Part shown: positions 1-59,957 of the stretch, piece after piece | Layout of the letters: each line of letters opens with the position of its first letter | How positions within the stretch are numbered: the stretch's first letter is position 1 | Origin: Ziziphus jujuba | Lineage: Eukaryota; Streptophyta; Magnoliopsida; Rosales; Rhamnaceae | Direction of reading: 5' to 3' | Assembly: GCF_031755915.1 (NCBI RefSeq) | Contig: NC_083388.1 | Location: 9,547,001 to 9,611,000, forward strand | DNA length: 64,000 nucleotides | Made by a program: the position numbers and the translations under genes | The notes under the pieces: model-generated | Seen by the model: only the letters and a program-made list of their open reading frames with translations | Told to the model about the DNA's origin: nothing | Databases searched by the model: none

Positions 1-780
1 TAAGGAGTAAAGAAGAGCACATGAAATATTTAAGAAAGAGTGCTATAGACCCTAATGCAGCACTAAATGGCCAAATTTAACAAATGTGAGGTTTGGCTAA
101 ACATGGTAGGTTTCTTTAGGTGCATAGTATCAATGGATGGCAGTGAGTTTTGGCTAAACATGGTAGGTTTCTTTAGGTGCATAGTATCAATGGATGGCAT
201 GTACGTGTATCTCGAGAAGGTGAAAGCTGTGTTAAATTGGGAGAGTCCTACCTCAGTGATGGAAGTGTACAGTTTCCTTGGCATAACAAAATATTATTGC
301 AATTTCATTGAAAGATTATATAAGATAGTAGGGCTAACTTATTACCTAACACAGAAGGGGATCGATTTTGAATGGACAGACAAATATGAGTGGAGTTTCC
401 AAAAGTTAAAGGAAAAGATGACATCCGCTCTTGTTTTAACTTTACCAGATGGAAATGAGGGTTTTAAAGTTTATTGTAATGCGTTCCATCAAGGATTGAG
501 CTGTGTATTGATGCAAAACCAAATGGTAGTTGCATATGCTTTGTAACAATTGAAAAAGTATAAGCTGAACTACCTTACACATGATTTGGAGCTTGCTATG
601 GTAGTTTTGGCCCTAAAGACCTGGAGGCACTACCTGTATGAAGCCACGTATCAAATCTACACATGACCACAAAAGCCTCAAGTATATTTTCAACAAGAAG
701 GACTTAAATATGAGGCAGAGGAGGTGGATGGAGCTATTGAATGATTACAATTATGTGATCGATTATCGCCCAAGCAAGGC
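1..780 (+). pseudogene. Outer Ty3/gypsy element: reverse transcriptase C-terminus and RNase H (relic)
   Basis: This is the left-hand remnant of a plus-strand Ty3/gypsy polyprotein gene, which originally copied element RNA into DNA. From about 190 the translation follows the end of the reverse transcriptase and the start of RNase H. It contains EKVKAVLNWESPTSV, a SFLG..KYY.NFI block and an RNase H-side block around FEWTDKYEWSFQKLKEKM. After a stop at 544-546 the homology continues (residue blocks DHKSLKYIF and [21 protein letters not shown], 660-779) until an inserted LTR interrupts it. The catalytic part of the reverse transcriptase lies left of the window. Internal stops and loss of frame between blocks show that it is dead. 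The domain assignment is firm from the motifs; the clade (chromovirus) rests on the chromodomain piece further right. Confidence 0.88.
86..199 (+). repeat. 57-bp in-frame tandem duplication inside the reverse transcriptase relic
   Basis: Bases 86-142 and 143-199 are nearly identical 57-bp copies. Each encodes a FWLNMVGFFRCIVSMDG-like block, which corresponds to one copy in related polyproteins. Because 57 is a multiple of three, the frame survives. Confidence 0.9.
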
Positions 781-3971: not shown

Positions 3972-5213
3972 TTCTTCTTCTTTTGCAAAGGATTTATCCT
4001 CAAATTAAAGTTATCACTTGCAAATAAAGGAGATAAGTCAGAAACATTAAAAGTAGCACTAATATTATATTCAGTTGGCAAATCTAATCCATATGCATTG
4101 TCATTTAGTCTCTCCAATATTTGGAAAGGTCCATCTTTTCTTGTCATAACTTAGACTTGCGTTGGGCTGGAAATCTTTCTTTCCTCAAATGCAGTCAAAT
4201 GCAATCTCCAGGTTCAAACACCATAGGTGTTCGCCTTTATTAGCTACACATGCATATTGTTCCATTCTTCTTTCAATGTTTGCATACGCCTTTTTATTTA
4301 TCTTCTTTATAAATTTTATCTTTTTCTTTTCATCAAGATTAGCATGTTCACTTATAGGAAAATATGTTAAATCTAATGGAGTTAAAGGATTCATACCATA
4401 TACAATTTCAAAAAGAGAATATTTTGTAGCAGAATGCACAGTCTTATTATATGCAAATTCTATATGAAGCAAACAATCTTTCTAAGTTTCAATATTTCTA
4501 TCAATTAAAGCATGCAACAATGTAGACAAAGTCCTATCACTACTTTAGTTTGACCATCTGTTTATGGATGACAAGTAATAAAGAATAATAATTTAGTACT
4601 TAAATTAGCCCATAATATTTTCCAGAAATAATTTAGGTACTTAGCATCTCTATTGGATACAATTGTTCTAGCATACCTATAATCTAATAACTTCTTTAAA
4701 AAATAAATTAGCAATATAAGATGCATCATCAGGTTTTTTACATGCAATGAAGTGTATGCCATTTTACAAAGTCTATCCATGATAACAAAAATAAAATCTT
4801 TTCCACACTTTGTCCTAGGCAAACCTAATATAAAGTCTAGAAATATTTGTCCATAAATAAGATGGAATAGGCAAAGGCATATACAATCCATAGGGTTGTA
4901 ATCGTAATTTTGACTTCTTACACTTAATGTATATCTCATAGACCCTCTCAACATCTCATTTCATGTGTGGCCAATAAAAGTGCTATTGTATAATAGCCAA
5001 AGTTTTAGCTACTCCAAAGTGTCCCATAAGACCACCTTCATGTGATTCCCTCACCAACAGCTCACGTGTACTACATGATGGAATGCAAAGTTTATTCTCC
5101 CTAACTAAGTATCCCTCAAACCTATAAAAATTTTCCATCACCATGCTTTTCACAAAGTTTGTAAATTTCACCAAAATCATTATCACATGCATACAAACTT
5201 TTAATTTGTTCAA
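3938..5213 (-). pseudogene. Inner element integrase (relic)
   Basis: Reading the minus strand from 5213 to 3938 gives the end-to-end order of a gypsy integrase. The zinc-binding region comes first (LCIPSCSTRELLVRESHEGG...GHFGVAKT, 5120-4983). The catalytic core follows (FLDFILGLPRTKCGKDFIFVIMDR and a TIVSNRDAKYLNYFWK block, 4860-4600), then NKTVHSATKYSLFEIVYG near 4440, and last the C-terminal module (DGPFQILERLNDNAYGLDLP, then SATFNVSDLSP). Integrase would have inserted element DNA into the host genome. Several frameshifts and stops split it into separate open pieces of 70-130 codons. No chromodomain follows the C-terminal module. Instead the frame enters the LTR. Confidence 0.88.
3972..3984 (-). 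other. Polypurine tract of the inner element
   Basis: The plus strand reads TTCTTCTTCTTTT directly beside the LTR end, so the element's own strand has a 13-base purine run at the position where second-strand synthesis is primed. Confidence 0.75.
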
Positions 5214-19733: not shown

Positions 19734-20979
19734 TTACAAGAGATGACTTGAAGAAGAAGAAGAGTTGAGACCACCTGATATATCTGTGGACCATGGACTT
19801 CCACCCCAGAATTGATTATTATTTTCCGAAATAGCATTCAGAGTAGGTCTTGATGATGATAGATTCAAACCCTGATGATTGTCTTCCCTTTTCACCGGAG
19901 GATTATTATTAATCTGCGAAACCCTAGACGATGAAAAGTTTCTAATCAGCTGACTCTCTCCAACCATAGGAGGTAGTACTGGTTCAACAACTCCTTCAGT
20001 ACCAACTTGAAATGGGTATAGACCTGAAGAGGAAGACGAATCGAAACCGTTACCCATTAGAGGAGGAAATTGCTGCAATCGCCATTGATCCGCTTCTCCA
20101 CCCGGTAACATCACATTGTTTCCACCTGAATTACCTCCCATCGGGAACCCAATATCACCAGGAACTTGGATCTCACTGAAGTTTAACCCCAAGTTTCCAC
20201 CACCACCACCACCACCGGCGAACCTAGAAAGATGATTTTGTATCGAAAGCATGAAGGAAGAAGATTGATTTTGCTGCGGCGGCGGGAGTAAACGGGAAAC
20301 TACATCGGAGCCACTAGGATTAATCATTAGGTTTGTTGAACTGGAACCACCCATTGGTCTTTCGGTGGAAACCGGAGATTTCGATCGGTTATTGCTTTTG
20401 CTTTTCTTGTTCCTTCGGCATCCTCCTCCAACCGGAACATTCCTAAGGGCACCACCTCTAGTCCAGTAGCGCCGACATGTCTTGCAGAAGTGGCGAGGCT
20501 GAGTGAGGCTGTAATTGTTGAAGTAGCAGAACTTTGTGTTGGTGGATTCGCATCTCGGGCACTTAAGAGCCGCTTCTGGCTGTGGTAACTTCGCTAGTCG
20601 GGCTCGATCAGCCATCGAACCAGGCCTGATCGAGCCGATGCCACCGCCACTACCGCCTCCGACTCCGACATGAGGAGGTGGTGGTGGAGGCAGTGGCGGA
20701 AGCTGGGGTGTTTCGCTGCTGTTGCCGCCGCTTCCTAGTCGATGATGATTTTGCTGCTGCAAGTTAGAAAAATACAATGAATTATAAATCCACAAGAAAC
20801 AAATATTATGTGGTATATTCACAAAAGAGATTACAAAGGAATAGGAATAATAATCTTTGCTCTTTTTTTATTTTTCTTTTTTTGGGTGCTGAAGCTGTTG
20901 ATTCAAATTTTTTGAAGAAAAACCTTACCTGGTGCCAATTGGGAGGATCTAAATATACTGGAATGGATGAGAAAACCAT
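19734..20979 (-). CDS. DOF: Dof zinc-finger transcription factor (OBP3/DOF3.6-DOF5.1 type), two exons
   Basis: Coding is join(19734..20756, 20929..20979) on the minus strand, 357 residues. Exon 1 encodes [17 protein letters not shown] and ends at CAG|GTAAGG. A 172-bp intron ends TTGCAG|CAG, and exon 2 carries the rest in phase. This MVFSS..YLD..NW start with a following intron is typical of the subfamily and decides the start codon. The Dof domain spans about residues 81-139. It has zinc ligands CPRC and, 21 residues later, CKTC, then [20 protein letters not shown] and a basic RNKKSKS tail. The family binds AAAG-core DNA sites in the nucleus and regulates plant development. Upstream of the domain are poly-proline and glycine runs and a [19 protein letters not shown] lead-in. 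The C-terminal two thirds are Ser/Asn/Gly-rich. Exon 2's frame is open past the acceptor, so a single-exon call would give a false N-terminus. Confidence 0.96.
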
Positions 20980-54136: not shown

Positions 54137-54204
54137 GGTGTGTGTGTGTGTGTGTGTGCATGGTGTGTTTGGTGTGTTTCTCTCTCTCTCTCTCTCTCTC
54201 TCTC
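54137..54204. repeat. (GT)n and (CT)n compound microsatellite
   Basis: A GT run at about 54137-54159 is followed after a GT-rich spacer by a CT run at about 54178-54204. The open frames that overlap it on both strands are repeat-derived. Confidence 0.9.
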
Positions 54205-54380
54205 CCCCCACGTTCTCCTTTAACCACCTTCTTAATCTCTTCTATCCTCCAGTTTGTCTGGCTTTCGTTTTGAATATTGCGATGTATTAACTTGTCATCA
54301 ATAAATATGGAATTTGCAGCTGACATGACAATAATGGATTTAGTTGCATTTAAATTCATTTTGACTTTTTAAAATTAAAA

Positions 54381-55550
54381 GATATTGTCATAGCAAGTTT
54401 CTAAACTATATAAGTTGTATCATTTAACTCTCCAAACCTTTCTTTTAGCAATTAAGTCCTCAAACTCATTACAATAGTGCATCGTCAGGAGAAAATCAAA
54501 ATTCGATCCAAATGGATAACAGCATATGCACCTGACAGTCAGGTGGCCATTGGACAAAGATATTGAAGGTCATTTGCCACCTATATTCTCATACTTCCTC
54601 ATAAATCGGTCATTTATTCAGGAAAATTCTAACTCCGCTGACTGGTAAAATCTCCATATCTCCATCTTATACATCTATGTGTTTGGATTTTAGTTGACAA
54701 ATTTGAACTTTCTTTTTTTTTTTTTTTTGGTTCAACAAATATATATATATATATATTTGGTGTGAAGGTTCAAGATGAAGAAAGGCAAATTGGAGAAGTT
54801 TGACATGCTTATGGCTCTGTGCAGGCAAAGATTGATTCAAATTCCAATTGGTATTGGGTTTCTGTATTTAATGCTTGTCATTGTGGAAATTCCACTTATG
54901 TACAGAGGTGGGCTGTTTTTTAGGAGTCTAATGCTTGACATGCTTATGGCTCTATCCAATATGCTGAATATGGAGGAAAACTTGAAGAAAGAGAAAATTC
55001 GACTCATAAAAGCTAAGTCAGAAAACCACCAAAAACGGAATTAGTAGAAGAAATGGATTTGGTGTTAATTTACAACGAAAATCTGAAAAATGAAAAAAAA
55101 TAAATAAATTAATAAAAATCCCTATGAGTAAGAGCGGATCCAAATTCCAAACCCCATACAAATTCAACCCCATAAAATCTTTAATATTTTATTTTTCTAC
55201 TCTTAAAACAAAAGTTGAATTTTATTTATTTTATATGATTTCCATTTAAAAACGGGATTAAATTTTCATAAACAAATCATCTCAAACCATCATCGTTAAA
55301 GCCAAAGTTGCATAGTTTTATCACAGGGAATGGGAAAATTATGGGTGGCAAGTGACCTTTAAATACCTTTGTCAAATGGCCATATGACTTTTTCGTACAC
55401 ATTCTATTAGAGATTTAGATTGAATTTTAATTTTGTTTTTGATTATATACAATTGTAATGAGTTTAAGGATTTAACTATTACAAAAAAAAATTTTAGGGA
55501 GCTAAATGATGCAACCTATATAGTTAAAGGACTTGCTGTAGCAATTTCTC
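54381..55550. mobile_element. Pack-MULE: Mutator-like element carrying a captured host gene fragment
   Basis: The element has long terminal inverted repeats of about 215 bp. The left end begins GATATTGTCATAGCAAGT and the right end, on the opposite strand, begins GAGAAATTGCTACAGCAAGT. The two arms stay alignable through ACTATATA(A/G)GTTG(T/C)ATCATTTA(A/G)C, CTCATTACAAT, and finally GGCCATT(G/T)GACAAAG(A/G)TATT and GGTCA(T/C)TTGCCACC at 54542-54585 and about 55344-55381. The 11-base sequence TAAAATTAAAA lies exactly outside both ends (54370-54380 and 55551-55561), within the 8-12 bp range of Mutator target duplications. No transposase is inside. The interior holds a gene-derived open frame at 54775-55044. 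All three features together define a Pack-MULE, which would have been moved by an autonomous MuDR element elsewhere. Confidence 0.85.
54775..55044 (+). pseudogene. Captured N-terminal fragment of a hydroxyproline O-galactosyltransferase-like gene
   Basis: An 89-codon open frame begins MKKGKLEKFDMLMALCRQRL and continues IQIPIGIGFLYLMLVIVEIP. This resembles the short cytoplasmic tail and Golgi membrane anchor of plant beta-1,3-galactosyltransferases of the GALT type, which have a basic start, a RQR.IQI motif and L..VEIP...R after the anchor. The membrane segment is about residues 22-40. Beyond residue about 46 the sequence departs from the family: a second DMLMALS block looks like an echo of residues 10-16, and the rest is Lys/Glu-rich. 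The galectin-like and glycosyltransferase domains are absent, so it cannot be an active enzyme. It sits wholly between the inverted repeats of the Pack-MULE. Whether it is transcribed is unknown. Family assignment is by recall of the N-terminal motif. Confidence 0.6.
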
Positions 55551-55561
55551 TAAAATTAAAA

Positions 55562-58484: not shown

Positions 58485-58605
58485 CTCTATAAATGAGTAC
58501 AAAAGCCATGCAAGAAAAATAAAAATAAAAAAAGTAACCGTTCAAAACCCTTTTTGTGTGTCTTCCATCTCTATTTTTCTCTCTGGCTATTTTATACTAT
58601 AAAAA
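58485..58605 (+). promoter_or_regulatory. Putative WOX2 core promoter (two TATA candidates)
   Basis: CTCTATAAATGAG at 58485-58497 and CTATAAAAACG at about 58597-58607 both match plant TATA boxes upstream of the WOX2 ATG at 58654. The first would give a leader of about 130 bases, the second about 25. The upstream 300 bases are CT- and C-rich, as in many plant promoters. Confidence 0.45.
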
Positions 58606-58653
58606 CGAGAAACTCCATTAAGGAAAAACCCAGCTGAGAATTTTTACAAGCAC

Positions 58654-59957
58654 ATGGAGGGTGACAACATTGTAAACAACGGTAGTGGTGGTTCCGGTGG
58701 AACTCCGGCGAGTTCACGGTGGAACCCCACAAAGGAGCAGATAAATATGCTAGAGAATTTGTATATGCAAGGGATAAGAACACCCAGTGCCGAGCAAATA
58801 CAGCAGATAACAAGCAGGCTGAGAGCTTTCGGTCACATAGAGGGTAAGAATGTCTTCTATTGGTTTCAGAATCACAAGGCCAGGCAAAGGCAGAAACAGA
58901 AGCAAGAAAGCTTGGCTTATATCAATCGGTTTCTTCACAGGACTCAGCCAATTTTTCCTTCTCATCCTTGCTCTAATGGTTAGTTTTTTTTTTTTTTTTT
59001 TAATCAATTTTTTTCTTTTTGGGTTCTCTTGTTTATTTCTTCGTTCTTGTTCTTTTTGTTCTTCTTCTTTTTTTTTCTGTTTATAAGTTCTTTTTCGTTG
59101 CAGAGTTCGTGTGTTTTTATTTGCTTTGATTATTTTATTGTATATTTTTGTATTTTAGCTCCAAGCTTTCTGTTCATGCAAACAAGCTCGTTTAATGTGT
59201 AACTGAATATAATAAATATATAAATAGAATATAAAGTTTAGAACTCTGAATTTCACTCTCTTTAATATAAAGTTTTTTTCTAACCATTGTCATTGAGGCA
59301 TTGGGTAAAAGGCCTATCATATTTAAAACTTTTATCAACACAATGACCCGTCTCTTTCCAACTGCTTTTTGCTGCCCTGCCAAGCCTTTGGATAAGAAGA
59401 AGAATCTAATTGCATGTTCCTTTTGCTTGTTAATTAGTTAATCTGAAATGGGGTTCTTCTTTTTTTTTTTTTTTTTATAATATATATATATATATATATG
59501 TATATTTTCAGTGGTTTGCGGTCCATATTTCTTACCGGTACAGTCTGATATGGGCTTCAATCAACAACATATTCCAAAAGTGCCTCTATCAGGAGGCATA
59601 AGGAGGAGACTAAAAACCCATCAGAAAATGGACAAATCAAGAACCAGCTGTGGAGTAGCTGTGTCTCAGCAAGTCACAAACCGAACGATCAGCAACCCCA
59701 TTAATCAAGAAACACGTGCACTCTTTCCTTTGCACCCAACAGGGATTTTACAAGGGAAAGAGGACCAAAACCACCTTTGTGTTTTGGCTGATCAGACTAG
59801 TACTTCTCCGACTACCACTGCTACACCTTCTAGCTCTTCTGAGGTTGAAGAAAGTCCAGCTGGTGATCACCAATATTTCTATAACTTTTTCTGTGGAGAA
59901 CAAGGTTTTTGTGACAGTAGTACTACTACTATTACTACCACCACCACTACTGATTGA
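58654..59957 (+). CDS. WOX2: WUSCHEL-related homeobox 2 transcription factor
   Basis: Coding is join(58654..58978, 59512..59957), 256 residues. The intron (58979-59511) has GT...TTTTCAG ends and splits a valine codon, restoring the CSNV junction that I know from WOX2. The WUS-type homeodomain spans about residues 20-84, with [10 protein letters not shown] at its start, the longer loop typical of WOX proteins, and recognition helix [15 protein letters not shown] at about 66-80. [18 protein letters not shown] just after the homeodomain is closer to WOX2 than to WUS, WOX4 or WOX5. A WUS box, TRALFPLHP, is at about 177-185. The tail is Ser/Thr-rich and acidic, with a FYNFFCGE block and a short threonine run. 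In known plants WOX2 is a nuclear regulator that acts in the apical lineage of the early embryo. Nothing looks damaged. Confidence 0.96.

Follow-up and report, generated by a model that had tools for sequence, protein, structure and literature searches.

A probable Pack-MULE in Ziziphus jujuba carrying the N-terminal end of a GALT5/6-type gene

Within a 64,000-nucleotide stretch of Ziziphus jujuba DNA (the whole stretch analyzed, hereafter the window), the region around positions 54370 to 55561 raises the question of whether a host gene fragment has been captured there by a Pack-MULE, i.e., by one of the Mutator-like non-autonomous elements that carry genes or gene fragments and that do not encode a transposase, as described in excerpts of PMC3310237 and PMC4858842. 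If so, a second question is whether the open frame that the element carries has any role of its own.

Ends and structure of the element

The region contains the following features, given as window coordinates and strand:

54370-54378, no strand: target site duplication, left copy, TAAAATTAA, exact against 55551-55559, with the match continuing to 54380 as TAAAATTAAAA
54379-54586, plus strand: left terminal inverted repeat, 156/204 against the right repeat; its border is 54381 if the duplication is 11 bp
54587-54774, plus strand: internal stretch 5′ of the gene fragment, reached by a GALT piece from one protein alone (P0117, from 54745 and running into the frame)
54775-55044, plus strand: captured N-terminus of a GALT5/6-type hydroxyproline O-galactosyltransferase, from alignments, tblastn, the family profile, and trees
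54841-54897, plus strand: membrane anchor at codons 23-41 (19 residues with a Kyte-Doolittle mean of 2.21)
54916-54957, plus strand: altered segment, codons 48-61, where the GALT match is lost and a 24-base internal repeat is found
55045-55339, plus strand: internal stretch 3′ of the fragment; tblastn GALT pieces stop at or before 55041
55340-55550, minus strand: right terminal inverted repeat, from its alignment with the left repeat
55551-55559, no strand: target site duplication, right copy, TAAAATTAA, with the match continuing to 55561

We place the element at 54379-55550 of the window, a length of 1172 bp. Alignment of the inverted repeats (54381-54586 vs 55340-55550) demonstrated that 156 of 204 aligned columns are identical, with 9 further gap columns, and that the repeats are therefore 76% alike over lengths of about 206 and 211 bp. 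The local score of this alignment is 144, compared to a maximum of 60 among 2838 pairs of window segments with the same spacing, which remained after pairs near the element were removed from the 3000 drawn. This confirms the presence of the terminal repeats described in the original prediction, although the length given there, 215 bp, is too long. Both lengths fall within the 100-500 bp reported as typical of Mutator-like terminal repeats in excerpts of PMC3310237; the 76% similarity is below the 80% applied to a tomato repeat library in the same excerpts (a threshold standing outside the definition given there), and this counts against assigning the element to the group. When the element was compared with the window by blastn (E 1e-3), the only hits were the element, each of its two repeats, and a single match of 26 bases, and of the 82 inverted-repeat pairs found window-wide, the 25 longest are mostly simple-sequence runs. 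GT and CT microsatellite runs occupy 54138-54207, just 5′ of the element.

Examination of the flanks showed that TAAAATTAAAA is present exactly on both sides (54370-54380 = 55551-55561). At the offset of this flank pair, exact 11-mer matches occur at 7 of 62808 window positions, with the flank pair counted in, and the background rate at offsets of 1000-1399 is 138 in 3588143 sampled pairs; since such matches are this rare, the occurrence of TAAAATTAAAA exactly at the repeat ends is probably not due to chance. The 11-bp duplication proposed earlier is therefore sound as an exact 11-base match, but most likely the duplication itself is better read as 9 bp, TAAAATTAA (54370-54378 and 55551-55559), with the two following A's matching by chance. 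We prefer the shorter duplication because the repeat ends then align without a gap: with the left end set at 54379, the first 50 repeat bases are identical at 38 of 50 positions ungapped, vs 15 of 50 with the left end set at 54381. The right end starts GAGAAATTG and the left end starts AAGATATTG, and the simplest reading is a mutation in the opening base on the left, with the next two A's of the right flank being chance matches. A less favored alternative is a duplication of 11 bp in which the left end has lost 2 bases (an end gap). The exact match of 9 to 11 bp on both sides agrees with the 9-11 bp duplications given for Mutator-like elements in excerpts of PMC3310237.

These observations bear on the possibility that a truncated GALT pseudogene simply came to lie between unrelated repeats and was never transposon cargo. 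We consider this very unlikely, in that the fragment is wholly within the long inverted repeats, the exact duplication is located outside them, and the score of the repeats is far beyond that of the controls.

When stop-free stretches were measured in all six frames of the element, the longest was 92 codons, and this stretch encloses the 89-codon frame and is GALT-derived; in the remaining five frames, the maximum lengths are 46-67 codons. No transposase-sized frame was found among them, as had been predicted. Pfam searches covering three of the six frames (the 89-codon frame and the longest stretch in each of two others) gave no match. The stretch 54587-54774 is possibly the 5′ untranslated region of the donor gene.

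The window as a whole is AT-rich (31% GC) and, from the genes in it, plant DNA, and several other features were identified. A homeodomain frame (58603-58980, plus strand; Pfam Homeodomain, E 1.6e-15) presumably belongs, by its letters, to a WUSCHEL-related homeobox (WOX) gene; its likely start codon is ~3.1 kb downstream of the element, and a frame at 59481-59954, with no Pfam match, may be a later exon of the same gene. Further away are a DOF zinc-finger transcription factor gene (19737-20867, minus strand; Zn_ribbon_Dof, E 4.1e-33), a retrotransposon polyprotein remnant (67-543, plus strand; RT_RNaseH_2, E 1.6e-10), and a frame that is integrase-like by eye and has no Pfam match (4565-4960, minus strand).

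Origin of the captured fragment

The frame at 54775-55044 begins with an ATG and runs for 89 codons to a TAG stop at codon 90, in agreement with the start codon and open frame noted originally. Using Arabidopsis GALT5 as bait, we obtained the best 120 of 1256 passing proteins, plant-type, as a GALT set; many of these carry the name hydroxyproline O-galactosyltransferase, either GALT5 or GALT6, and others are annotated as hypothetical or as galectin-domain proteins. As all 120 were drawn by the GALT5 bait, other GALT clades are barely sampled, and the GALT5/6 label is the best among the proteins seen (the best 120 of 1256). A tblastn search with these 120 proteins against the element (E <= 0.1) gave 124 pieces, 119 of which are in the 54775-55044 frame; the remaining five, each in another frame than this one, are weak matches (E 0.015 to 0.078). 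The best match among these proteins is to a Ziziphus jujuba GALT (P0014; 38/72, E 5e-18), so that the likeness to a Golgi galactosyltransferase anchor, originally proposed from the letters, now extends to retrieved plant GALT proteins, and the repeats enclose part of a known host gene that is not of transposon origin.

Codons 1-47 align with GALT proteins gap-free, with 31 of 47 residues identical to the jujube protein. The match restarts at codon 62, where the fragment reads NMLNMEENL and jujube reads NRLNIEEEL, and an alignment to the Rhamnella protein extends it to codon 84. We also considered a second half taken from another gene and rejected this, as the second half aligns in-frame with GALT residues about 59-83. 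Neither the galectin nor the Galactosyl_T domain was found in the fragment by Pfam, whereas both are found in P0014; the fragment thus lacks the pair of domains expected of a functional GALT gene. Other searches returned no relatives: the 89 residues alone, used as a protein query with candidates confined to 0.55-1.75x the query length, gave nothing; padding the query produced 28 candidates, none with E <= 10; a PDB search of the frame gave no match; scans of bacterial/archaeal genome contigs and of viral contigs yielded no relative; and a text search of the literature for GALT-like letter strings turned up no paper.

Trees were built from the fragment and 30 GALTs hand-picked from the 120. 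Over all kept columns, the fragment groups with Ziziphus (95/77) and then with Rhamnella (96/96); using the anchor part alone (48 columns), the same three sequences group together (80/88), and support for the Ziziphus pairing drops to only 86/38. The tree program flags the long branch of the fragment in both trees and its odd letter make-up in the all-column tree, and warns that so long a row is placed with little certainty. From this grouping, the host probably belongs to the Rhamnaceae or is close to them. The terminal branch of the fragment is 0.52 in the anchor part, about 4x the median of 0.12 (Ziziphus, 0.062), and 1.83 vs 0.18 over all kept columns, with the altered middle of the cargo probably inflating this last value.

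Rearrangement and decay of the cargo

Codons 48-61 have no GALT match, and this segment is 14 codons long vs 11 in jujube. Mostly within it, 54935-54958 repeats 54800-54823 (codons 9-16) at 22 of 24 bases, compared to a best internal 24-base match of 18 in codon shuffles of the frame (n = 300). At one position, the codon now specifies cysteine in the first copy and serine in the second, and serine is the commonest residue at this position in the family (62% of 118 GALTs). Since the second copy retains this commonest residue, the 24-base duplication probably predates a serine-to-cysteine change in the first copy. A second, short match (54869-54881 and 54929-54941, 12/13 bases) adjoins the 24-base repeat. 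This second match suggests that the altered middle was assembled from two templates close by, and the middle looks like the product of template switching during or after capture. The matching halves on either side share one reading frame.

We also analyzed whether the frame resembles a working GALT N-terminus. According to excerpts of PMC4431829, GALT5 is located in the Golgi and spans the membrane once, with an N-terminal segment, and the anchor segment of the fragment is nearly as hydrophobic as the same positions of P0014 (Kyte-Doolittle 2.33). Codon 24, in this anchor, is a proline, where 92% of relatives have leucine and 0 of 118 have proline. The fit of the fragment to a family profile built from 118 GALTs (2 of the 120 were dropped for coverage) is poor but not extreme, as 5 of the 118 fit worse, and highly conserved columns are broken as often or more in 41 of 118. 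In simulations of neutral decay, which started from the jujube sequence, covered 83 codons, allowed substitutions only, and used three settings with 400 runs each, decay to the observed identity gave a stop-free sequence in about 18-20% of runs, and one that was both stop-free and still began with an intact ATG in ~10%; with a milder end point (37/47 identical), the stop-free share was 36-41%. As a frame without stops arises this often under neutrality, the open frame is no evidence of function. These probabilities (0.18-0.20 and ~0.10) are nevertheless low, and some past constraint on the frame would be compatible with them. Because of the long branch, the anchor proline, and the frequency of stop-free neutral decay, the peptide is probably non-functional.

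This analysis weighs against the short membrane peptide originally proposed, which is unsupported in that the open frame fits neutral decay and the branch is long. In its fuller form, this proposal makes the frame a new gene that is expressed from a terminal-repeat promoter and yields a short Golgi/ER membrane peptide under selection, one that might compete for membrane partners with the parent enzyme. The retained ATG, the 89 open codons, the hydrophobic anchor, and the frame kept across the altered middle are all in its favor, and evidence of transcription, translation, and constraint is stated for rice Pack-MULEs in excerpts of PMC4858842. We regard it as very unlikely, given the long branch in both trees, an anchor leucine replaced by a proline seen in none of the 118 relatives, and an open frame that is not significant against simulated neutral decay. 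An extension of this proposal, in which a Golgi-enzyme anchor became a translated free membrane peptide, its middle rebuilt by duplication, that disturbs arabinogalactan-protein glycosylation, is the least probable that we entertain. Alternatively, the element might be a source of small RNAs acting in trans to silence its parent GALT gene. That Pack-MULEs regulate their parental genes has been proposed in the literature (excerpts of PMC3310237), but with 31/47 protein identity to the closest GALT, perfect 21-24 nt matches to the donor may be few, and silencing of this kind is also unlikely.

The best explanation, which we hold with high confidence, is a non-autonomous Mutator-like element (Pack-MULE) with a drifting GALT5/6 N-terminal cargo that most likely has no protein role. 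This is the identity originally proposed, and the repeats, the duplication, the GALT cargo, and the lack of a transposase-sized frame are all consistent with it; on the other side are, besides the repeat similarity, the kept ATG, the two halves in one frame, and the GALTs that fit the profile worse than the fragment does. In this explanation, the 5′-terminal part of a GALT5/6-type gene in a Rhamnaceae-like host, roughly donor codons 1-83, would have been copied between long terminal repeats. A transposase acting in trans would then have made a staggered cut, giving the short duplication, most likely of 9 bp. The cargo would have been rearranged internally, by a short template switch or a duplication, and would now be drifting and most likely inert as a protein.

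Comparison with known Pack-MULEs and GALT proteins

More than 3000 Pack-MULEs are reported in rice alone, and Pack-MULEs are also reported to capture GC-rich sequence (both in excerpts of PMC4858842). Here, the GC content of the 89-codon frame is 37%, vs 29% in the 2-kb flanks, which accords with the GC-rich capture reported in that source, although the left repeat, at 35%, comes close to the frame. Compared to GALT5 and GALT6, which are GT31 proteins with galectin and Galactosyl_T domains, the fragment is alike in its N-terminal tail and anchor (codons 1-47 and about 62-84), and differs in having neither galectin nor catalytic domain, in its altered codons 48-61, and in its stop at codon 90.

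This locus provides a clean single case in which a Mutator-like element has captured a gene fragment, here the 5′ end of a gene together with its start codon, and the internal 24-base repeat of the cargo is a record of cargo rearrangement that bears on how these elements copy host DNA. With the Pack-MULEs of rice, maize, Arabidopsis, and tomato (PM-ZIBP being a tomato example), as described in excerpts of PMC3310237, it shares a non-autonomous structure, long repeats, and a 9-11 bp duplication; like them, it has no transposase and carries a known host gene fragment, and its size of ~1.2 kb (1172 bp) falls in the 1000-1200 bp peak given for tomato Pack-MULEs in the same excerpts. Unlike the Pack-MULEs compared, its repeats are only 76% alike and its cargo is internally duplicated. 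The general picture is unchanged, and the element is a good, ordinary example of the known Pack-MULE kind.
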